From Tritonibacter scottomollicae (GTDB lineage: Bacteria > Pseudomonadota > Alphaproteobacteria > Rhodobacterales > Rhodobacteraceae): DNA of 64,000 bases. The notes under the pieces were generated by a model, which worked only from the letters and a program-made list of their open reading frames with translations, ran no database searches and was not told where the DNA came from. Positions 19,391 to 38,782 of this stretch are shown in pieces. The stretch spans positions 186,001 through 250,000 of the forward strand of contig NZ_PVUF01000002.1 in NCBI RefSeq assembly GCF_003003215.1. The letters are read 5' to 3'. The first letter of the stretch is position 1. Each line of letters opens with the position of its first letter. The position numbers and the translations under genes were made by a program.

Positions 19391-20230
19391 ATGACTGCTC
19401 AGAGCAACGTAGCTCCTATTATTATCAAGCGGAAAAAGGTTGTCGGTGGTGATGGTCACCACGGCGGCGCATGGAAAGTGGCCTATGCCGACTTCGTTAC
19501 GGCGATGATGGCTTTCTTTCTTCTCATGTGGCTTTTGAACGCGACAACGGAAAAGCAACGCAAGGGTTTGGCGGACTATTTTTCACCGTCCATTCCGCTG
19601 AGCCGCGTATCCGGCGGTGGTAATGGCGCCTTTCAGGGCGACACCATGTTCACTGAGGATGTGAAACCTCAGAACGGCATTGGCGCGACGAAGGAAAACC
19701 CGACAGATGCGTCTCGGGCGCAGGGTGACTCCGGTGTCGCCGACAGCCAGCAGAATGACGAGGCCGAAGAGGCGAGCTTCCGCAAGATCGAAGAAGAGCT
19801 GATGGGACGCGGGGGCGAAAGCATGGTCAGCATTGATATGGCGCGCCATATCGTGACCCGTGTGACAGATGAAGGTTTGATCATCGAACTCTTCGAGACC
19901 GACGATGCCAAGCTGTTCGAAACCGGTACGGAACGTCCGAACGTAATGATGCGCGATCTGCTGCGGATGGTGGCTCGGGTTACGGCGGCGGTCGAGAATG
20001 ACGTGGCGATCGGTGGGCATGTGGCCTCGACCCCTGTGGTCATCGCCAACAACCCGGTCTGGGCCCTCTCTCACGCCCGTGCCAATGCGACCCGGGAGCT
20101 GCTGGAGACGGGCGGTATGAAATCCAAGCGAATCTCCCGCGTGACCGGTTACGCAGATCGCGACCTCGCCTCCCAGAATCCGATGGCTGCGCGGAACAAT
20201 CGCATCAGCATCACGCTTCTGCGGAAGTAA
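19391..20230 (+). CDS. motB: Flagellar stator protein MotB
   Basis: A 279-aa stator subunit that anchors MotA to peptidoglycan. One N-terminal membrane helix holds the proton-binding Asp in AYADFVTAMMAFFLLMWLLN; a plug/linker and an OmpA-like peptidoglycan-binding domain follow (SHARANATRELL, ISRVTGYADRDL, NNRISITLL). The ATG at 19391 precedes the conserved IIIKRKK basic stretch; in-frame codons upstream add an unconserved leader. MotA is not next door but about 10.6 kb away at 30825, which is unusual for a stator pair. Confidence 0.92.
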   Translation: MTAQSNVAPIIIKRKKVVGGDGHHGGAWKVAYADFVTAMMAFFLLMWLLNATTEKQRKGLADYFSPSIPLSRVSGGGNGAFQGDTMFTEDVKPQNGIGATKENPTDASRAQGDSGVADSQQNDEAEEASFRKIEEELMGRGGESMVSIDMARHIVTRVTDEGLIIELFETDDAKLFETGTERPNVMMRDLLRMVARVTAAVENDVAIGGHVASTPVVIANNPVWALSHARANATRELLETGGMKSKRISRVTGYADRDLASQNPMAARNNRISITLLRK

Positions 20231-25421: not shown

Positions 25422-25516
25422 CACAGCACAGCACAGCACAGCACAGCACAGCACAGCACAGCACAGCACAGCACAGCACAGCACAGCACAGCACAGCACA
25501 GCACAGCACAGCACAG
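25422..25516. repeat. Pentanucleotide tandem repeat (CACAG)19
   Basis: Nineteen perfect, uninterrupted copies of CACAG (CTGTG on the other strand), 95 bp. It lies between the convergent flgI and fliP genes and between their two terminators. No frame of the unit contains a stop, so short frames stay open across it on both strands (AQHST repeats on plus, AVLCC repeats on minus). With 19 copies the two flanks on the minus strand join into a 126-codon frame (25240-25620); a copy-number change not divisible by three would shift it. Whether anything is translated is unknown. Confidence 0.95.
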
Positions 25517-25647
25517 CCAACGCTGATTCCATGTGTGAGTGCCAGCGAGGTGGATGTCCTTTGCTTGAGCCGCCGCCCGACGGGTGTCGGCGTGTCGCGT
25601 GCCAGGGTCGTCAGCGCCATGCTCGAAATTCGCGGGACCCATAAATG

Positions 25648-29082: not shown

Positions 29083-29128
29083 TTCCTGTCGGGTTATGAA
29101 CGGGGTGCACGACGTTTTAGGGATAGCC

Positions 29129-29653
29129 ATGACAGACGCTGTAGCTGATGTAGGAACAGATGGACCGGCCAAGAAGAGTAAGATGCCCCTTATCATAGGG
29201 CTCGTACTTGGACTCGCCGGTGCAGGGGGCGGTTTTTATGCCGTTCAGTCGGGCCTTCTTCCTTTTGGAGATAAGGCTGGGTCGGAAGTTGCCCATGCCA
29301 CCAAAGAGGCGCCAGAAGGCGTAGACAAGGGTGAGACGGCGGGAGAGATCGCCAACCTTGCCTTTATCGAAATGGAACCGATCGTAATCACGCTGAACAA
29401 AGCCAGTGGCGTTCAGCAACTTCGGTTCCGCGCTCAACTCGAGGTCAATCAGGCCGATCAGGTCGAGGTTGAAAAAGTCCTCCCCAGAGTTGTCGACGTT
29501 CTGAACAGCTACCTGCGGGCGCTGGAGCTTGAGGATATGACAGATCCGATGGCCCTGCCGAAACTGCGGGCACAGATGCTACGGCGGATCAACATCGCGA
29601 CCGGTCAAGGCCGCGTGCGTGATCTGCTGATCATGGATTTCGTACTCAACTAG
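29129..29653 (+). CDS. fliL: Flagellar basal-body protein FliL (copy 1)
   Basis: A 174-aa stator-associated protein: short cytoplasmic N-terminus, one membrane helix (about 20-40, IIGLVLGLAGAGGGFYAV), and a periplasmic domain with PIVITLNKASGVQQLRFRAQLEV and the C-terminal LRAQMLRRINIATGQGRVRDL typical of FliL. ATG 29129 follows AGGGATAG. It begins a plus-strand unit with a DUF6468-like gene, motE and motA. A second FliL-type gene lies at 38884-39405 on the other strand. Confidence 0.88.
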   Translation: MTDAVADVGTDGPAKKSKMPLIIGLVLGLAGAGGGFYAVQSGLLPFGDKAGSEVAHATKEAPEGVDKGETAGEIANLAFIEMEPIVITLNKASGVQQLRFRAQLEVNQADQVEVEKVLPRVVDVLNSYLRALELEDMTDPMALPKLRAQMLRRINIATGQGRVRDLLIMDFVLN

Positions 29654-29662
29654 GAGGACAGG

Positions 29663-30133
29663 ATGGAACTTATAGCTGATATCCTGCTTGCGGCCGGAGC
29701 ACTGGGTGCCGGGTTTTATTGCCTGGTGCTATCGCGCCGACTGAAACGCTTCAACGATCTCGAAAAAGGGGTCGGAGGCGCGGTGGCGGTGCTCTCGTCG
29801 CAAGTGGATGATCTGAACAAGTCGTTGGTCGCAGCGCGCAAGATGTCGGATGGATCTAGCCAGGCGCTGGAACAATTGACTGGCCGGGCCGAATCCGTAT
29901 CGCACAAGCTGGAACTGATGATGGCGTCGATGCATGATATCGCGCCACAGCAGGAACCGGCGTCTCAAGCGGCAGCGACGACCGAAGAAAATGACGCGCT
30001 TGCAGAAGCTTATGAGGCTGATGCACAGGACGACGCGGCTGCAGATGCCGTCCAGTCGGAGCCTCAGGAAGAAGCAAAGCCTTCTGGTCTGATGTTCGTG
30101 CGTCATAACCGGAATCAAAATCGGGTAGCGTGA
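29663..30133 (+). CDS. DUF6468-like flagellar-cluster membrane protein
   Basis: A 156-aa protein with one N-terminal membrane helix (about 4-24), a cytoplasmic helical/coiled segment (FNDLEKGVGGAVAVLSSQVDDLNKS) and an acidic, Ala-rich, probably disordered tail. It resembles the DUF6468 proteins found beside fliL in alphaproteobacterial flagellar clusters; this is from memory of the family and gene order. The role is unknown. GGAGGA precedes the ATG, and its stop overlaps the motE start. Confidence 0.62.
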   Translation: MELIADILLAAGALGAGFYCLVLSRRLKRFNDLEKGVGGAVAVLSSQVDDLNKSLVAARKMSDGSSQALEQLTGRAESVSHKLELMMASMHDIAPQQEPASQAAATTEENDALAEAYEADAQDDAAADAVQSEPQEEAKPSGLMFVRHNRNQNRVA

Positions 30134-30750
30134 TGGCGAAGGCTGAAAAATCCAAGAGAATGGAAAAGGCTAAGCGCGGTACGTTGATGCTGTTGGCGAT
30201 TTTCCTGATGGGGTCAGCGGCGGTTCGAATCGCTCTTGAAGCGGCCCCGGCCATCGCGCTTGAAGTTTCCGAGATGCAATCTTCAGACGACGGGTCAAAC
30301 GTGCCAACGGCTGGTGGAGGCCGCTCCACGGTCCCCGATTCGGCAGAGATGCAAGCCATGCTTGCGGCCTTCAAGAAACGTGAAACCTTGCTGAATGAGC
30401 GGGAGGCGGAGCTAGAAGATCGTATGCGAGCACTCGAGATCGCCGATCAGGCGATCAACAAGAAGCTTACGGACTTGCAGCAGGCAGAGGAAAAGCTTCT
30501 GGCCACTCTCGCGCTTGCCGATGGTGCCGCCGAACAGGATGTCACCAAGCTGACCAGTGTTTACGAGCAGATGAAGCCAAAGGAAGCGGCTGCATTGTTC
30601 GAGGAAATGGACCCGACCTTTGCTGCTGGATTCCTGGCACGTATGCGGCCCGAGGCGGCTGCTGGCGTCATGGCCGGTCTCAGCCCAGAGGCGGCCTACA
30701 CAATCAGCGTGGTACTGGCCGGGCGAAATGGTGAGGTGCCCAAGGAATAA
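30133..30750 (+). CDS. motE: MotE-like flagellar protein (MgtE-N-like)
   Basis: A 205-aa protein with one membrane helix or signal anchor (about 16-34), a long heptad-rich coiled coil (KKRETLLNEREAELEDRMRA through LQQAEEKLLATLALA) and a C-terminal MgtE-N-like helical repeat (EQMKPKEAAALFEEMDPTFA, LARMRPEAAAGVMAGLSPE). MotE of Sinorhizobium is a periplasmic partner and chaperone of MotC; this gene has the same build and sits directly before motA. ATG 30133 overlaps the previous stop. See the exported repeat protein downstream of motA. Confidence 0.72.
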   Translation: MAKAEKSKRMEKAKRGTLMLLAIFLMGSAAVRIALEAAPAIALEVSEMQSSDDGSNVPTAGGGRSTVPDSAEMQAMLAAFKKRETLLNEREAELEDRMRALEIADQAINKKLTDLQQAEEKLLATLALADGAAEQDVTKLTSVYEQMKPKEAAALFEEMDPTFAAGFLARMRPEAAAGVMAGLSPEAAYTISVVLAGRNGEVPKE

Positions 30751-30824: not shown

Positions 30825-31694
30825 ATGATCGGGATTGTGGGGATCGTTGTGATCTTTGTCATGGTGTTCGGTGGCTACCTGCTTGCAGGCGGGAAGCTGG
30901 GCATCATCATCAAGTCTCTTCCTTTTGAGATGATGATGATTGGTGGCGCGGCTATCGGGGCTTTCCTGATCAGCAATGACATGAGTGGTGTAAAACATAC
31001 GCTTAAGGACATGGGTAAGGTCTTTAAGGGGCCTAAATGGAAGCCGGATGACTACAAAGATCTGCTGTGCTTGCTATTCGCTCTCATCCGCATCGCCCGA
31101 GCGAATCCAGTCGAGGTGGAACAGCATATCGAGGATCCGGAGAATTCCTCCGTATTTGGAAAATATCCCAAGATCCTGGCGGATAAAGAAGCCGTAAATC
31201 TGATTAGTGACACCATGCGCTCTGCCTCCATGAACTACGATGACCCGCATCAGGTCGAAGAGGTTCTGGAAAAGCGGATCGACGCCAACCTGCATCATGC
31301 GTTGCATTCAAGTCATGCGTTGCAAACCATGGCCGACGGTCTGCCCGCGCTGGGCATTGTGGCCGCTGTTCTCGGGGTGATCAAGACGATGGCGTCTATC
31401 GATCAGCCGCCTGAAGTCCTTGGCAAGATGATTGGTGGCGCGCTCGTCGGGACTTTCCTTGGGGTTTTCCTGTCCTACGGTCTGGTCGCACCCTTCGCTG
31501 GCAAGGTGAAATCTGTCGTCGAGGAAGACGCGCATTTCTATCAGCTGATCCGAGAGGTTCTGGTGGCGAACCTTCACAACCACGCCGCCGCCATCTGCAT
31601 TGAAGTGGGGCGTCAGAATACGCCTTCCCACATCCGGCCCGGGTTCTCCGAGCTGGAGGAAGCCTTGAATTCGGTGAAACAGGACGCAGCATGA
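30825..31694 (+). CDS. motA: Flagellar stator protein MotA
   Basis: The 289-aa proton-channel subunit that pushes on FliG. Four membrane helices; MotA-type GTFLGVFLSYGLVAPFAGKV and DGLPALGIVAAVLGVIKTM carry the conserved prolines; cytoplasmic residues for FliG contact lie between helices 2 and 3. The TTAACAAGACTC stretch near 30775 is only a CtrA half-site. Its stop overlaps the start of the 804-aa exported protein by 4 bp, so the two are translationally coupled. Confidence 0.94.
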   Translation: MIGIVGIVVIFVMVFGGYLLAGGKLGIIIKSLPFEMMMIGGAAIGAFLISNDMSGVKHTLKDMGKVFKGPKWKPDDYKDLLCLLFALIRIARANPVEVEQHIEDPENSSVFGKYPKILADKEAVNLISDTMRSASMNYDDPHQVEEVLEKRIDANLHHALHSSHALQTMADGLPALGIVAAVLGVIKTMASIDQPPEVLGKMIGGALVGTFLGVFLSYGLVAPFAGKVKSVVEEDAHFYQLIREVLVANLHNHAAAICIEVGRQNTPSHIRPGFSELEEALNSVKQDAA

Positions 31695-34105
31695 TTTCGC
31701 GAGCAATCGCATTGGCGACCGCAGTAGTGGTCGCCGGATATGCAGAAGCACAAACCATCGTAACGCGCTCGGGTGAACACGAAGACTTTTCCCGGCTCGT
31801 AATGCGAATCCCTGATGGGGTAGAATGGTCTCTGACGCAAAGTGATCGCATTGCCACCATCAACGTCGGATCTCCGACGGCAGTGTTCAATACGCGTGGC
31901 GTATTCGATCTCATCCCCCGCACCCGCATTCAAGACATCAGACAGTCCGGCCCAGGCCAGCCGCTGCGAATTGATCTGGGTTGTGAATGTAGCGTCGACT
32001 ATTATCAGCAGTCGGATGGTTATCTCGTTGTAGACGTGCGTGAGGGGCGTCCACTTTCATTAGCGGAACCGTCTGATAGAGCAAGTCTGCCACTGACATT
32101 CCCGACGTCGGGGGAGGGCTACAGTTTTAATCTGGAGCGCCAGAACTTGGCCAGCGCGCGGGTCGCACTGAATCTCGAGGACGCGGTCGAGCAGGCATTC
32201 GGTTCTTCAAAGCAGCAACCGCTGCACACCGGGCCATTGGAACTGCCGCTTCGTGACGCGGAAGAGGCGGGGCCCACAGCCGAGAGCGCGCTTGCTGAGG
32301 CAAAACCTCCCGCCGAAAAAAACAAAGATGGTAAATCCGAACCCAAACCTTTGGATGCGAATGCCAGCCTTCTAATGGATTTCGACGAAAGTCAGCGGGC
32401 TGCCATGGTGAATGACACCGAGGCGCGCATCCTGCAGCAAATCGGGCGTGCCAGTAACCAAGGGCTCCTACAGCCCAACGCTGAGACGCAGGAGACCCAG
32501 CAACTTAATCCTCTGGATAATGGCAACCGTCCTCTCAACCCGTTGGACAACATTTCGGTCACATCAGCGATTGATCGCGAAACAGGATTGTTCGCGACCG
32601 GCGCAGGGGATGAGAATGTTGATACGCATTGTATCGCGGATAGAGAAATAGCGATTAACAAATGGGGCGACGAAACACCGTTCGCTGAACAGATCGGAGA
32701 GTTACGGAACAAGGTTCTTGGTGAATTTGACGAGGTGAATCGTGATGCAGCGCTGAAGTTGACACGAACGTATCTGTATTTTGGCTTCGGAGCTGAGGCG
32801 ATAGCAGCATTGGGGCTTCTGTCCGAACGAGACTTGAACCCGCGCTCTCGTGAAGTGATGATGACGATGGCCAAGATTCTCGATGCTTCCGACATGCCCG
32901 TGAACACGATTTTCTCGGGACAGCAGACCTGCAACGGTGACGCTGCTTTCTGGGCTGCGCTATCAGATGGGCTGGTCAAGAAAAGCGCGAATACTGACGC
33001 AATTCAGCAGGCATTCGCACGCCTTCCAGCGCATCTTCGGGTGCAGCTGGGCCCACGCCTAAGCACGTTTTTTGCAGATGCTGGCGATCCAAGCGTCGCA
33101 AAAGCGGCTCTGCGATCTGTGGACCGCACGGGTATTGAAGCGGTCCCGGACCGCAATCTCGCCGAGGCCGCGATCGCTGAGTTAGAAGGTGATACAGATG
33201 AAGTGGTCCGCAATCTCAACGAGGAAGTCGCAGAGCAGAGTCAGAATACGCCTAAAGCGCTCATCGACCTTATCAAGCTGAGCTATGCGGAACGTCGCGC
33301 TTTGACACCGGATGTTCCGGACCTGACGGCCTCTTACGAACTGGAGAACCGTCATTCCGCGCTCGGTGCCGAATTGCGTCTAGCTGAGGTGACTGCTTTG
33401 GCGTTAACGGGCGACTTTGACAGGGCTTTCCAGCAAGTGTCCGTTTTGGAACAACGCGATGGCACCAATGCCAGAAATGCGGCCAATGTACCTTTGATGA
33501 CGTTGCTGACAGAGAATGCTGACGACGTAACCTTTCTAAAGTACGCGTTGATTTTTGCAGAAGAGGCGGGTGCGACGCGTGCAGGCCAAGTGGGCGATAT
33601 GGTGGCCCGCCGGTTGCTTGATCTGGGGTTTGCCGAGCAAGCAGAAATGTTGTTGGTTAAAATGAGCCTGGAGCCGCAGAATAACGAACGTCGCATGATG
33701 AGTGCTGAAGCACATCTCCAAATGGATCAGCCTCAGCGGGCTCTGGTTGAGTTGATGGGGCTCGAAGGACAGCAAGCAGATCGTATGCGGGCCGAGGCCC
33801 TGTGGCGTAATAAGGAGTATGAACGGGCGAGCCAGTATATGGTGTCCGCACAGGATTTGAACGAAGCCGCACGTGGGTTTTGGTTGTCTGAGGATCTGGA
33901 CGCAGCGGAAGCATTGGATGAGGAAGCCGCCCCTTTCCGTGCAGTTGCAGATCTGACCAAGCAGATTGACACAGCAGTCCAGGAACCGCAGGGCATGCCC
34001 CCACTGGCAGAAGCACGTGCGCTGATCGAGAGCAGCGCCGGGGCGCGGACGTCGATCGAGGAACTGCTTCGCCAGGTTGAGCGAACTGCGCCTGAAGAAG
34101 AATAG
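31691..34105 (+). CDS. Large exported helical-repeat protein coupled to motA (function unknown)
   Basis: An 804-aa protein I cannot assign to a named family. A signal peptide (1-20, cut after AEA) predicts export. Residues about 22-125 form a beta-rich domain (PTAVFNTRGVFDLIP, DGYLVVDVREG) reminiscent of AMIN-type periplasmic domains. Residues about 190-310 are acidic, low-complexity and probably disordered, with QQLNPLDN/RPLNPLDN repeats. From about 320 to the end the sequence is helical with TPR/Sel1-like spacing (ALKLTRTYLYFGFGAEAIAA, LLDLGFAEQAEMLLVKMSL, AEAHLQMDQPQRALVEL). Start overlaps motA by 4 bp. Its place recalls rhizobial motA-motB-motC-motE, so a MotC-like periplasmic stator factor is my inference, not a homology claim. 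Confidence 0.85.
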   Translation: MISRAIALATAVVVAGYAEAQTIVTRSGEHEDFSRLVMRIPDGVEWSLTQSDRIATINVGSPTAVFNTRGVFDLIPRTRIQDIRQSGPGQPLRIDLGCECSVDYYQQSDGYLVVDVREGRPLSLAEPSDRASLPLTFPTSGEGYSFNLERQNLASARVALNLEDAVEQAFGSSKQQPLHTGPLELPLRDAEEAGPTAESALAEAKPPAEKNKDGKSEPKPLDANASLLMDFDESQRAAMVNDTEARILQQIGRASNQGLLQPNAETQETQQLNPLDNGNRPLNPLDNISVTSAIDRETGLFATGAGDENVDTHCIADREIAINKWGDETPFAEQIGELRNKVLGEFDEVNRDAALKLTRTYLYFGFGAEAIAALGLLSERDLNPRSREVMMTMAKILDASDMPVNTIFSGQQTCNGDAAFWAALSDGLVKKSANTDAIQQAFARLPAHLRVQLGPRLSTFFADAGDPSVAKAALRSVDRTGIEAVPDRNLAEAAIAELEGDTDEVVRNLNEEVAEQSQNTPKALIDLIKLSYAERRALTPDVPDLTASYELENRHSALGAELRLAEVTALALTGDFDRAFQQVSVLEQRDGTNARNAANVPLMTLLTENADDVTFLKYALIFAEEAGATRAGQVGDMVARRLLDLGFAEQAEMLLVKMSLEPQNNERRMMSAEAHLQMDQPQRALVELMGLEGQQADRMRAEALWRNKEYERASQYMVSAQDLNEAARGFWLSEDLDAAEALDEEAAPFRAVADLTKQIDTAVQEPQGMPPLAEARALIESSAGARTSIEELLRQVERTAPEEE

Positions 34106-34130
34106 GGTATACCTTTCATTTTGCATTGGC

Positions 34131-34154
34131 ATGGCCGTCCCGGAGGACGGCCAT
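34131..34154 (+). terminator. Perfect stem-loop after the exported repeat protein
   Basis: ATGGCCGTCC (34131-34140) pairs with GGACGGCCAT (34145-34154) over CGGA, 26 bp after the stop codon, followed by TTCGCTT. A likely intrinsic terminator of the fliL-motA unit, though the T-run is short. Confidence 0.6.
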
Positions 34155-34426
34155 TTCGCTTCGCCTGATAACATTTTGTAAAGCATGTCGGCCTACCGTG
34201 AGGACAGGGAAGAATCCTCATTTGGAACAGGCAAAATGCCAGTGAAAAAGACGACAGCAACCGGGCAACGATCCCGGCATTTTTTGACCGTGCGGCAAGG
34301 GGCTCCCCTGCTGGCGCGGTTTTTGGCGTTTTCGCGATGGATCATCGCCAGTCTCAGCGGATCTCCCTATCTTCCGACCGGTACTGCCGGGCCGATCCTG
34401 ATCGCTTTCATATAAGAGAAAAACTC
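34155..34426 (+). other. flhA leader region with a second terminator-like hairpin
   Basis: No convincing gene. A 76-codon frame at 34185-34415 has no recognised features. CCGGG (34261-34265) pairs with CCCGG (34273-34277) and is followed by CATTTTTT, which looks like a small intrinsic terminator lying 150 bp before flhA. The flhA promoter must lie here; no CtrA-type box is visible. Confidence 0.5.
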
Positions 34427-36517
34427 GTGCCGAATCTGTCAATCAAAGAGCTTTTCAGCCCGACGATCCTTCTAGCGATGGCGCTTATGGCGATCATCGT
34501 GATGATGATCTTGCCAATGCCGGCGTGGGTGTTGGACGTGGGGCTTGCCACTTCGTTCGCACTTGCGATCCTCATATTCACAGTGACCCTCTTCATCGAG
34601 AGACCTTTGGATTTTTCGTCGTTTCCGACGATCCTCCTCGCATCCTTGATGCTGCGCCTGTCCTTGAATGTGTCATCGACCAAGCTGATCATCGGACAAG
34701 GCCACACCGGTACGGATGCGGCCGGCAATGTGATCGAGGGGTTTGCGAACTTCGTGATGGGCGGCAGTGTCTTTCTCGGGCTCGTGGTCTTCGGGGTTCT
34801 GCTGATCGTGAATTTCATGGTCATCACAAAGGGTGCAGCGCGCATGGCGGAAGTTGGCGCGCGCTTCGCGCTCGATGGGATGCCTGGTAAACAGCTCGCG
34901 ATTGACAGCGACGTGTCTGCGGGTGCGATCGATCACGCCACAGCCAAGGAACGCCGGGAGACCGAACAGCGTGAAACCACATTCTTCGGCTCCCTCGATG
35001 GCGCGTCGAAATTTGTGAAAGGCGATGCAGTCGCGGGTCTTCTCATTACTCTGCTGAACCTGATTGTTGGTCTGTTGATGGGGGTTCTGATCCACGGCAT
35101 GCCGATCGGGACTGCTTTTGAAACCTACGCGATCCTGACCGTTGGGGACGGTCTCGTCTCGCAGATCCCATCGGTGATCATCTCTATCGCAGCCGCGCTT
35201 CTGCTGGCACGGGGCGGTGCAACCGGTGCCACAGACACCGCGATTTTCTCTCAGTTTGCCAAGTATCCAGGGGCGATCGCCGCAGTATCCGTGCTGATGA
35301 TCCTCTTCGCTCTGGTTCCGGGTTTGCCGTTTATTCCATTCATCACCGGTGGCGCTCTCCTTGGGTACCTTGCCTACCGCGTCCAGAAGAAGAATGCCGA
35401 GACCGAACAGTCGGAGCTGGATGCGAAAGTCGAGGAGGTCCAGTCGCCCGAAAAAGCCAAGGCGCTTGGTGATATTCTGGACCTCGATGACCTGCATCTG
35501 GAGTTTTCCCAAGATTTGGTATCGATGGTTCTTGATCCCGGAACCGGACTGGACGCACGCATTGCGAATATGCGCACGCATGTAGCCACGACCTTTGGTT
35601 TGATTTTGCCGGAAATCCGCCTGACGGATGAGGCCGAACTGGAGAACGGAACCTATGTCGTTCGTATTCAGGGGGTTGAGCAAGCACGCGGTACGCTGCA
35701 TCCGGATATGGTTTTGGCATTGATGCCAGATAATCATGCCGCGTTGCCGTCCGGAACAGATGTGACAGAGCCCGTCTACGGTGCGCCCGCTCGCTGGATT
35801 TCGACCAAGCATCAAGAAGACGCCGCCCTGATGGGGGCGACTGTGGTGTCACCGCCGGAGATCCTTGCCACGCATCTTCTGGAAGTCGTCAAACAAAGCT
35901 TCCCGCGCCTGTTCACGCTCAAGGCTCTGCGCCGCTTGCTGCGCGAGATGACGGATCTGACAGATGAGTTTCGCGCCAATGCCAACAAGAAACTTTTGGA
36001 CGAGTTGATCCCGGACAAGGTGCCGATCGATACTCTGCACGCAGTGTTGCGCCTTCTGCTCGAAGAACGCGTGTCGATCCGAAATATGCCGCTGATCCTT
36101 GAGTCCATCGCCGAAGCGCGCATGCGAACCACGTCGCCGGAGCTGATTACAGAGCATGTGCGTCAACGCCTCGGCTTTCAGCTGGTGGCAGAAATGAAGC
36201 GTGATGATGGTACCATTCCGCTGGTACAGCTGGCCCCTGAATGGGAAGATGCGTTCACCACCTATCAGGTTGAAACCCAGTCCGGCCTTGATATTGCCTT
36301 GCCGCCAGACACGTTCAACAAGCTTGTTGATGCCATGAGCGACAAGATCAATCAGGTCACCGAGCAGGGTATCTTCGCCGCCATCGTCACCTCCACGCGA
36401 CGTCGCCGGTATCTTCGCACGATCCTGCGGTCCCGCGGTATTCAAAATCCGGTATTGTCCTTTGAGGAAATCGGATTGGAGGCCCGTCCTGCACTTGTAG
36501 GTATGGTCGCGGCATGA
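34427..36517 (+). CDS. flhA: Flagellar export gate protein FlhA
   Basis: The 696-aa export-gate platform. About eight N-terminal membrane helices, including the FHIPEP-family motifs VLDVGLATSFALAILIFTV, RLSLNVSSTKLIIGQGHTG and DGASKFVKGDAVAGLLI (the FHIPEP loop), then a cytoplasmic domain from about residue 340 that docks chaperones (QGVEQARGTLHPDMVLAL, LRLLLEERVSIRNMPLI). I take the GTG at 34427 (reading PNLSIKELFSPTILLAMAL next); the frame is open upstream without conservation. Overlaps fliR by 4 bp. Confidence 0.94.
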   Translation: MPNLSIKELFSPTILLAMALMAIIVMMILPMPAWVLDVGLATSFALAILIFTVTLFIERPLDFSSFPTILLASLMLRLSLNVSSTKLIIGQGHTGTDAAGNVIEGFANFVMGGSVFLGLVVFGVLLIVNFMVITKGAARMAEVGARFALDGMPGKQLAIDSDVSAGAIDHATAKERRETEQRETTFFGSLDGASKFVKGDAVAGLLITLLNLIVGLLMGVLIHGMPIGTAFETYAILTVGDGLVSQIPSVIISIAAALLLARGGATGATDTAIFSQFAKYPGAIAAVSVLMILFALVPGLPFIPFITGGALLGYLAYRVQKKNAETEQSELDAKVEEVQSPEKAKALGDILDLDDLHLEFSQDLVSMVLDPGTGLDARIANMRTHVATTFGLILPEIRLTDEAELENGTYVVRIQGVEQARGTLHPDMVLALMPDNHAALPSGTDVTEPVYGAPARWISTKHQEDAALMGATVVSPPEILATHLLEVVKQSFPRLFTLKALRRLLREMTDLTDEFRANANKKLLDELIPDKVPIDTLHAVLRLLLEERVSIRNMPLILESIAEARMRTTSPELITEHVRQRLGFQLVAEMKRDDGTIPLVQLAPEWEDAFTTYQVETQSGLDIALPPDTFNKLVDAMSDKINQVTEQGIFAAIVTSTRRRRYLRTILRSRGIQNPVLSFEEIGLEARPALVGMVAA

Positions 36518-37293
36518 ATTTTGAAGGCATTACTCCTGAATTGCTGGCACTTTTCGGTGCAGGGTTCTGGCAAGGAGCCATTGTGTTCCTGCGCATCGGA
36601 GCAATGACTGCGGTCATGCTCGGGTTTGGGGAACAACTCGTCCCGACTCAGATCCGACTCGTTTCAGGTTTGGTGTTTACGGCCATTGTCGCCCCGACTT
36701 TGCCCCAGATACCGATGCCGCAATCGACCATGCAGTACGCCGGGCTCGTTGCGACAGAGGCGGTTGTGGGGCTGTCGCTTGGGGTCGCGCTGCGGATGTT
36801 CATGCATATGTTGCAGACCGCAGGGTCGATTGCGGCTCAATGTACCTCTCTCAGCCAAGTGCTAGGCGGTGCAGGGGCCGATCCGATGCCGGCGCTTGGT
36901 GCTGTCTTGTGGATCTCCGGCATAGCGGTAGCGGTCATGCTGGATTTTCACATTCACGCGGCAGAGTTGATGATCAGGTCCTATGATCTGTTTCCCATTG
37001 GTATCTTCCCGGATGCCTCGGGGCTATCGGAATGGGGAGTTCACCGCGTGTCGGAAACGTTTTCGATCGCGTTCACACTGGCAGCACCGTTCCTGATCAC
37101 CGCAGTGATCTACAACCTCACGCTTGGAGTCATCAATCGTGCGATGCCACAGCTGATGGTGGTTTTTGTCGGTGCACCAGTGATCACGTTTGGTGGCTTG
37201 TCGATCCTGATGATTGGCGCGCCGATGATGCTTCAGGTCTGGGGGCGCAATCTGTTGATGTTCTTTGCAGACCCGGGTGTTGGAATGCCATGA
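36514..37293 (+). CDS. fliR: Flagellar export gate protein FliR
   Basis: A 259-aa gate subunit with about six membrane helices. FliR-type motifs include FLRIGAMTAVMLGFGEQLVP, ATEAVVGLSLGVALRMFMHM and QLMVVFVGAPVITFGGL. Overlaps flhA and flhB by 4 bp each, the tight flhA-fliR-flhB order common in alphaproteobacteria. Confidence 0.93.
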   Translation: MNFEGITPELLALFGAGFWQGAIVFLRIGAMTAVMLGFGEQLVPTQIRLVSGLVFTAIVAPTLPQIPMPQSTMQYAGLVATEAVVGLSLGVALRMFMHMLQTAGSIAAQCTSLSQVLGGAGADPMPALGAVLWISGIAVAVMLDFHIHAAELMIRSYDLFPIGIFPDASGLSEWGVHRVSETFSIAFTLAAPFLITAVIYNLTLGVINRAMPQLMVVFVGAPVITFGGLSILMIGAPMMLQVWGRNLLMFFADPGVGMP

Positions 37294-38381
37294 GCGACGA
37301 TAGCGAAGACTCAGACAAGTCATTTGAACCAACGCCCGAAAAGCTGCGCAAGGCACGTCAGGACGGCGATGTCCCGAAGTCGAACGACCTGCTGCAGGCG
37401 GCCTCATATCTGGGTCTGTTAATCGCGCTTTACGCTGCCGGACGGTCTTCCATTGAAGAACTCGGCACCGTCTTGATGAGTATGATCGACCAGCCTGATC
37501 GACTGGTCCCGGTATTCTTCGGCGATGGCAGTGCCTCCCCCATTGCGGGGGAGTTCATATCTGCAGCGTTTGGATCAATACTGTCGTGGTTTGTTGTCCC
37601 GGCGGCACTTGTGTTGCTGGCGGTGTTTGCACAAAAGGCCATGGTCTTTGCCCCGAAGCGGATTGAACCGAAGCTCTCGCGCCTCTCCATCATCAAGAAC
37701 GCCCAGAACAAGTTTGGTCGCTCCGGCCTGTTTGAATTTGCTAAGAGCTTCTTCAAGCTGGTTCTGTATTCTGTTGCTCTGGGAGTTTACCTGTCTTGGC
37801 GGTTGCCCGAGATGATCGCATCTGTGGGCACCAGCCCGTTTACGGTTGTTCCATTCCTGGCACAGCTTGCCATGGAGTTCCTGATCCTGACGTTGATCAT
37901 TGCCCTGGCGATCGGTCTTGTGGATGCATCATTTCAACAATCTGAATTTATTCGGAAAAACATGATGTCGCGCAAGGATGTCATGGATGAGATGAAGCAA
38001 TCTGAGGGCGACCCGCACATGAAAGGCCAGCGCAAGCAGAAGGGGCGTCAAATTGTGAGCAAACAGATTGCCGCCGCGGTTCCCGATGCGGATGTGGTGA
38101 TCGTTAACCCGACGCACTATGCGGTGGCCCTGAAATGGACCCGAGTTGCGGGTAGCGCGCCTGAGTGCGTTGCCAAAGGGGTCGACGAGGTTGCTGCCAT
38201 GATCCGCGAGATCGCGCAGGAGAATGGCGTACCGCTGCACAGTGATCCACCAACCGCACGCGCGCTCTATGCAACGGTTGAGGTCGGTGAGGAAATTTCA
38301 GAGGAACATTACTCTCCAGTGGCGGCTGCGGTTCGTTTTGCCGAAGAGATGCGTAAGAAGGCGAAGGAGAGTATCGTATGA
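37290..38381 (+). CDS. flhB: Flagellar export switch protein FlhB
   Basis: A 363-aa substrate-specificity switch. N-terminal EPTPEKLRKARQDGDVPKS motif, four membrane helices (about 35-210), and a cytoplasmic domain with the self-cleavage site Asn273-Pro-Thr-His276. ATG 37290 overlaps the fliR stop; the frame is open far upstream but only in the fliR shadow. FlhB normally acts with a FliK ruler, which is not encoded here. Confidence 0.95.
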   Translation: MSDDSEDSDKSFEPTPEKLRKARQDGDVPKSNDLLQAASYLGLLIALYAAGRSSIEELGTVLMSMIDQPDRLVPVFFGDGSASPIAGEFISAAFGSILSWFVVPAALVLLAVFAQKAMVFAPKRIEPKLSRLSIIKNAQNKFGRSGLFEFAKSFFKLVLYSVALGVYLSWRLPEMIASVGTSPFTVVPFLAQLAMEFLILTLIIALAIGLVDASFQQSEFIRKNMMSRKDVMDEMKQSEGDPHMKGQRKQKGRQIVSKQIAAAVPDADVVIVNPTHYAVALKWTRVAGSAPECVAKGVDEVAAMIREIAQENGVPLHSDPPTARALYATVEVGEEISEEHYSPVAAAVRFAEEMRKKAKESIV

Positions 38382-38782
38382 AACAGGACAAGATGCTTGC
38401 GCAGATGAAGGCGGTGACGAATGCCGTTTACCTGCGGGAACACGCCAAAGTTAAACCCATTCTTGACCGTGAGGCACAGCTGCGCGGCAAGCTGGCAATG
38501 TTGAAGCAGCAAGTGGAAGAGTCCAGGTCCCTGATTGACGAAAGCCATGAGATGAAGACTCTCGGTGTCGATTTGCAATGGCAGAGATGGCACACCAATG
38601 CCCGCCGGGATATCAACCAGGACCTTGCTCAGGTCACGGCACAGAAATTTCGTGCAATGGACAAGCTGCGTCACGCCTTCGGCCGTAAACATGCGGTAGA
38701 GACTATGGAAAATCAGCATAAATCGGATGTCAAGGAACGTCGCAACAAGATGCTGTTTGATCGGTTGATGAACCTCGACTGA
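38378..38782 (+). CDS. FliJ-like coiled-coil protein of the export apparatus (tentative)
   Basis: A 134-aa, charged, fully helical protein (QLRGKLAMLKQQVEESRSLI and a C-terminal basic helix KSDVKERRNKMLFDRLM). Size, basic-coiled-coil composition and place in an export operon (4-bp overlap with flhB) fit FliJ, the stalk of the FliI ATPase ring. fliI itself is elsewhere (43566) and has no other FliJ candidate beside it. The sequence is too divergent for a motif-based call. Confidence 0.5.
   Translation: MKQDKMLAQMKAVTNAVYLREHAKVKPILDREAQLRGKLAMLKQQVEESRSLIDESHEMKTLGVDLQWQRWHTNARRDINQDLAQVTAQKFRAMDKLRHAFGRKHAVETMENQHKSDVKERRNKMLFDRLMNLD

Follow-up and report, generated by a model that had tools for sequence, protein, structure and literature searches.

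An 804-residue protein encoded directly behind motA in Tritonibacter scottomollicae, assigned by sequence to the MotK family

The motK locus

The window considered here is the full 64,000-nucleotide stretch at positions 186,001-250,000 of contig NZ_PVUF01000002.1 of Tritonibacter scottomollicae, and it carries a flagellar cluster of this Rhodobacterales bacterium. An open reading frame (ORF) of the cluster, motK, runs from an ATG start at 31691..34105 on the forward strand, as do fliL, the DUF6468 gene, motE, motA, flhA and the plug region of motB given below, and encodes a protein of 804 amino acids (aa). Judged by its sequence, this protein is an ortholog of MotK of Cereibacter sphaeroides, a member of a known family and no new system. 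It was filed as MotK because BLASTP aligns it with the 652-aa MotK ORF found in a C. sphaeroides genome (577 aa aligned at 26% identity, E=9e-32) and because the two loci have the same operon order, fliL-pflI-motE-motA-motK.

The gene directly upstream is motA (30825..31694; TIGR03818, E=3e-108, above the cut-off). At the junction, gcATGAtttcg, the ATG of motK shares four bases with the TGA of motA, an overlap already described in an earlier note on this DNA. The same note had placed a MotE-like gene just before motA, and this is borne out: motE (30130..30750) ends 74 bases before the start of motA, and its MgtE_N head matches PF03448 with E=9.8e-6 at 26.5 bits (cut-off 25.9), while a match to FlbB stays below threshold. 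The product, which contains no cysteine, is 53% identical over 131 aa to the 185-aa MotE of C. sphaeroides. Before it lies the gene of a DUF6468 protein (29663..30133), PflI-like by position, which matches PF20072 with E=4e-5 and a score of 24.1 bits, below the curated cut-off of 26.9; the ORF that occupies the pflI position in C. sphaeroides shares 54% identity with it over 102 aa. The operon begins with fliL (29096..29653; Pfam FliL, E=1.3e-13); its product and that of the positionally equivalent C. sphaeroides ORF share 50% identity over 175 aa.

Downstream of motK, the next gene is flhA (34337..36517, start codon unsettled), identified by 66% identity over 695 aa to a C. sphaeroides ORF. 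No SltF gene lies in the interval between the two (34106-34336), and a search with C. sphaeroides SltF, made without a positive control, gave no match across the window genome. The sltF mutant of Phaeobacter inhibens is reported to be immotile (PMC12363192). The only MotB_plug match of the genome is the plug region of motB at 19430..19588 (PF13677, E=7.2e-20; G000:C2:205430-205588), and the MotB encoded there, about 12 kilobases (kb) from motK, is the likely partner of MotK.

Two further features of the flagellar cluster were observed. A perfect CACAG pentanucleotide array of 19.2 copies lies between flagellar genes at 25422-25517; arrays of this kind can vary in length. A 134-aa ORF at 38378-38782 overlaps the end of the preceding ORF (37032-38381) and has no Pfam match up to E=1.

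Identity as MotK

MotK was first named in 2024 in C. sphaeroides, where it was reported to be periplasmic, to bind MotE and MotB2 and to be essential for rotation (PMC10954123). The C. sphaeroides protein has 652 aa, with a 24-residue signal peptide, an AMIN-like N-domain and a TPR-like C-terminal part, and is encoded in the operon fliL2-pflI-motE-motA2-motK (PMC10954123). This operon belongs to the Fla2 cluster, which carries motE and motK and is controlled by CtrA; the motK mutant was found to be paralysed, with filaments and FlgE2 release as in the parent, and the motE mutant also has flagella (PMC10954123).

The C. sphaeroides genome used for comparison was named by sequence, as 4 kb of one of its contigs are 99.7% identical to C. 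sphaeroides plasmid records; among the best of these records, two point to strain 2.4.1 in their name or source entry. In that genome the locus runs fliL-DUF6468-MotE (185 aa)-motA-MotK (652 aa)-SltF-flhA, in which the label SltF is taken from the place of the ORF in the P. inhibens gene list. As far as MotK, this order agrees with the one published for strain WS8N, and so do the protein lengths (PMC10954123).

The earlier note had presented the protein as a candidate new stator-associated system, in the form of a MotC-like periplasmic scaffold. The claim of novelty falls: the name MotK was given to the family in 2024 (PMC10954123), and the gene at the same position was described as CP4 in 2025 (PMC12363192). 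The functional guess was a good one, as the protein falls in a family of periplasmic, stator-associated partners of MotE, a part played by MotC in rhizobia, and overall the proposal is partly supported. That it might belong to a non-motility family is opposed by the MotK orthology; its N-terminus speaks against a cytoplasmic location, and so does the periplasmic location published for C. sphaeroides (PMC10954123).

The protein could also be a MotC of the rhizobial type, or a separately evolved protein that took over the role of MotC. It is paired with MotE as MotC is, and MotC and MotK are both described as TPR-rich and homologous (PMC13023049). However, motC of Sinorhizobium meliloti follows motB (PMC10954123), whereas in the window the gene comes behind motA, some 12 kb from motB; moreover, a MotC homologue is reportedly missing from C. 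sphaeroides (PMC10954123). When the 5.4-7.5 kb around motB were inspected by eye, with no MotC reference, in 20 of 89 MotB-positive genomes, no MotC was recognised. Either reading is regarded as quite improbable.

Correspondence with CP2, CP3 and CP4 of Phaeobacter inhibens

In 2025, the genes fliF, fliL, CP2, CP3, motA, CP4, sltF and flhA of P. inhibens were listed by locus tag (PMC12363192). The window has the same order minus sltF, with the DUF6468 gene in the position of CP2, motE in that of CP3 and motK in that of CP4. CP2, CP3 and CP4 of P. inhibens were therefore equated with DUF6468 (PflI), MotE and MotK, matched by gene position alone. Mutants in the three genes were immotile and were rescued by complementation, the CP4 clone consisting of the whole operon (PMC12363192). 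The main text of PMC12363192 contains 0 occurrences of MotK, MotE or MotC, and no paper bearing both MotK and the P. inhibens gene names was listed by searches of an open-licence library. PMC12363192 counts C. sphaeroides in its fla1-type set and takes another C. sphaeroides cluster as its fla3 reference; with Fla2 of C. sphaeroides read as fla1-type, the apparent conflict is removed.

CP1-4 are said not to occur outside the order (PMC12363192). A search of 58 genomes of the class gave DUF6468 matches in 34, of which 32 belong to other families than that of the window, and Caulobacter vibrioides, among the controls, was matched as well; hence the restriction to the order looks too narrow for the CP2 position.

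The P. inhibens work also bears on whether MotK is mainly an assembly or export factor and not a stator scaffold. Assembly roles for CP1-4 were suggested by its authors, and the exoproteome of the CP4 mutant contained fewer flagellar proteins than that of the wild type (PMC12363192). Against this, the CP4 mutant still releases FliC, FlgK and FlgE (PMC12363192), and the motK mutant of C. sphaeroides is paralysed in spite of its filaments and parental FlgE2 release (PMC10954123). A role mainly in assembly is therefore considered unlikely. The CP3 mutant was reported to release only FlgH and to show no flagella; the results section of the paper gives FliC for the CP4 mutant and not for CP3, while its discussion has CP1 and CP3 acting late (PMC12363192).

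Occurrence and synteny in the order

Of the 292 genomes of the order that were searched, 207 gave a tblastn match to MotK and 256 carry the flagellar marker FlgI. On comparing the printed lists by hand, it was found that all 207 MotK-positive genomes are FlgI-positive and that 0 of the 36 FlgI-negative genomes have MotK (Fisher p=8e-23, uncorrected for kinship).

Synteny was examined in the named loci, which are the best 80 of 193 confirmed. In 79 of them motA lies directly upstream of motK, and the 80th is on a contig cut at that end. MotE was matched in 75 of the 80 and fliL in 74, the upstream misses being cut contigs. Taking the start codon nearest to the end of motA, the start of motK was in the overlapping position in 68 loci. 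Downstream, flhA was matched in 67 loci; some of the misses are contig ends, but others have 4 kb of downstream sequence without flhA, so another gene order exists there. The closest named relatives, with 71-77% identity, are from Tritonibacter, Phaeobacter, Epibacterium and two metagenome bins. It is concluded that motK is a real, conserved gene.

SltF lies just downstream of motK in 42 of the 80 loci, as in C. sphaeroides, and this neighbourhood, together with the AMIN-like fold of the N-domain described below, could point to a peptidoglycan-linked factor that works with the lytic enzyme SltF and helps the rod to cross the wall. This is very improbable: MotK is retained in the window genome, where C. 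sphaeroides SltF had no match (in the search without positive control), and the motK mutant of C. sphaeroides still builds flagella (PMC10954123).

Among 72,556 plasmid records searched, only one held a MotK relative. In this record, plasmid pD4M1D of Paroceanicella profunda (NZ_CP040822.1; locus L224), fliF, fliL, motA and the MotK relative follow in order; fla1-type clusters, unlike this one, are reported to be all chromosomal (PMC12363192).

Conserved cysteines

Three alignments were used. A1 holds the window protein and 21 of 30 tblastn loci; A2 holds the window and 34 of 60 loci from tblastn and profile searches, some loci being second pieces of one gene; and A3 holds the window and 72 of 80 loci, with L077, L085, L092, L095, L098 and L104 dropped to save rows and L079 (cut by the contig) and L123 (frame ending at 511 aa) also omitted. 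The 35-row alignment has 12 invariant columns. Four cysteines of MotK, C98, C100, C314 and C414, occur without exception in both larger alignments (35 of 35 rows in A2, 73 of 73 in A3).

The stability of MotE depends on a cysteine of its own in C. sphaeroides and reportedly in S. meliloti as well (PMC10954123). The C. sphaeroides MotE has one cysteine, whereas that of the window has none, and 62 of 76 MotE ORFs (those of 75 named loci among L073-L152, and of C. sphaeroides) are without cysteine, in a count that uses the longest upstream frame and may overcount cysteines. From these sequences, MotE would have to be stabilised otherwise in much of the clade, and any conserved disulfides would sit in MotK and not in MotE.

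Predicted domains and fold

The N-terminus of MotK, MISRAIALATAVVVAGYAEA|QT, resembles a Sec signal peptide when read by eye, without a prediction program, in agreement with the export of the protein proposed earlier for 31691-34105. The putative signal peptide covers residues 1-20 (31691..31750), and A20 is invariant in A1. The remainder of the earlier description, a beta-rich N-terminal domain, a disordered centre and a C-terminal part of helical repeats, is also what structure prediction suggests. The full-length model, built from the 73-row alignment, has a mean predicted local distance difference test score (pLDDT) of 82.5 and a predicted template modelling score of 0.61. In the models, an AMIN-like beta domain is formed by residues 20-118 (31748..32044), with nine beta strands at residues 21-118 and the invariant C98 and C100. 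It is followed by a low-confidence linker, residues 119-306 (32045..32608), with pLDDT mostly <65 and three predicted helices. Residues 307-797 (32609..34081) form a predicted TPR-like solenoid with pLDDT >90 over most of its length and the invariant C314 and C414.

When the full-length model was compared by Foldseek with 350,542 PDB chains, rank 1 was 9hmf_K, from the periplasmic motor scaffold of Campylobacter jejuni (E=2.5e-5). This chain is probably PflA, as judged only from its length of 773 residues. PflA is described as a TPR superhelix with an unstructured linker and an N-terminal beta-sandwich (PMC12222027), and its N-terminal beta domain has been called AMIN-like (PMC11870540). The N-domain of MotK modelled alone reached a pLDDT of 94.9; its best Foldseek match was AmiC 4bin (E=2.6e-3), with PilQ B2 at rank 8 and small heat-shock folds ranked between the two. 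A sequence-profile search of the PDB with MotK gave four matches up to E=1, the best with E=0.011, none of them flagellar and none PflA.

MotK-like genes elsewhere in Alphaproteobacteria

When 240 genomes of the class were searched with the MotK profile, 99 were positive, and 97 of these belong to other families than that of the window. Most matches lay in open frames of some 1000-1400 aa, where it was often the N-terminal domain that matched, and many of the E-values were weak. Of these 97 positive genomes, 20 of the 22 best loci were examined. MotE-like and FliL-like ORFs were found within the 12-20 kb fetched in 19 of the 20 (the exception being L194), and the large MotK-like ORF was found again at E<1e-3 in 18 (exceptions L188 and L196).

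Both motE and the large ORF could be delimited in 16 loci, with L183 excluded. In 12 of these, two extra ORFs lie after motE and directly before the large MotK-like ORF, encoding a tandem pair of MotB-like bitopic proteins (L184:6728-8088, L191:7848-9343, L200:7615-9037 and nine further loci); the pair is absent from L186, L195, L197 and L201. MotB_plug was matched by the first ORF of the pair in 10 of 12 loci and by the second in 12 of 12. The two proteins are related to each other, and an aspartate in the plug of the second is invariant. The idea that the pair lacks OmpA domains proved wrong for the second protein, as OmpA was matched in 9 of 12 second and 0 of 12 first proteins. A literature search for such a MotB pair found nothing by title or abstract opening. 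L183, from another family, has a motE-motA-motK arrangement.

It is tentatively proposed that MotK is the alphaproteobacterial spoke of the E-ring, of sufficient age to be found across families of the class, and that the preceding gene is swapped, being motA in Rhodobacterales and often elsewhere the MotB-like pair, whose second member carries the channel aspartate, so that the spoke is made together with the stator part that is docked. In Rhodobacterales the spoke would be braced by its own disulfides, the cysteine of MotE being mostly lost. This extension is held to be possible, though somewhat doubtful.

Proposed role and significance

The protein is very probably the MotK of the fla1-type flagellum of this member of the Roseobacter group, acting as a periplasmic spoke or scaffold that joins the MotE ring to the stators. 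By orthology with the C. sphaeroides protein, MotK of the window strain would be exported to the periplasm, bind MotE and MotB and be needed for rotation. MotE, the counterpart of FlgY/FlbB, probably forms an E-ring round the MS-ring. The likely ligand of the AMIN-like domain of MotK is peptidoglycan or an adjacent part of the scaffold; the linker would give reach, and the TPR-like solenoid may bind the coiled coil of MotE and the periplasmic part of MotB. In this way, the spoke would join the MotE ring to the stators and hold or activate them, a geometry which, like the binding of peptidoglycan, we infer.

Several results weigh against this reading. No curated Pfam or NCBIfam model names the 804-aa protein, the best matches being below threshold, and the TPR_19 and ANAPC3 matches in the solenoid are also below cut-off. 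By tblastn, 49 of 256 FlgI-positive genomes have no MotK match, which speaks against a universal need for the protein; five of these (G006, G018, G036, G050 and G067) remained negative when retried with the profile, and G053, a weak tblastn positive (E=3.2e-4), was missed by the profile. The whole-chain superposition on 9hmf_K is poor (TM-score 0.19-0.20, root-mean-square deviation 49 A), and the Foldseek hits that follow are eukaryotic TPR-type and other repeat proteins; the match thus supports a like architecture and not descent. For the N-domain, all E-values are at least 0.001, and small heat-shock folds score nearly as well. Finally, the CP3 mutant of P. inhibens is without flagella (PMC12363192), whereas the motE mutant of C. 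sphaeroides has them (PMC10954123), so the roles of the operon may differ between the two species, or the CP3 insertion may affect neighbouring genes.

With the identity of the gene settled, papers that named the same genes separately are joined. The uncharacterised essential proteins CP2, CP3 and CP4, from the type of flagellum most common in Rhodobacterales, become, by position, PflI, MotE and MotK. A path at the level of sequence leads from MotK to the large motE-linked proteins of other alphaproteobacterial families, for which earlier work reported structural likeness. New in detail are the MotK-like genes beside motE in other families, the four invariant cysteines of MotK and the mostly cysteine-free MotE; the cysteine-free MotE of the window provides a sharp test against the cysteine found necessary for MotE stability elsewhere.

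Comparison with known systems

The closest known system is MotK of the Fla2 flagellum of C. sphaeroides (RSWS8N_12065, PMC10954123), which resembles the window protein in operon order, signal peptide, AMIN-like N-domain, poorly ordered middle, TPR-like C-terminal part and four aligned cysteines. It differs in length, the window protein being longer overall at 804 aa against 652 aa, with 26% identity between them; moreover, the window has a cysteine-free MotE and no SltF gene behind motK. CP4 of P. inhibens (PGA1_c35690, PMC12363192) is alike in its place directly after motA and in that disrupted mutants are non-motile; it was likened to the window MotK by gene position and not by sequence.

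MotC of S. meliloti is also a periplasmic partner of MotE needed for rotation, and is encoded behind motB (PMC10954123, PMC13023049). CC_2058 (FssB) of Caulobacter crescentus has a Sec signal and a predicted TPR domain and acts in a stator-dependent surface pathway (PMC7885107); it adjoins the MotE-like CC_2059 (PMC13023049) and is likened to MotK by description only. In the models, PflA of C. jejuni would share with MotK the layout of beta-sandwich, linker and TPR superhelix. PflA is a partner of the FlgY/FlbB E-ring, and the neighbour of MotK, MotE, has a head that matches MgtE_N by sequence. FlcB of Borrelia, another partner of the FlgY/FlbB E-ring, is likened to MotK by description only.

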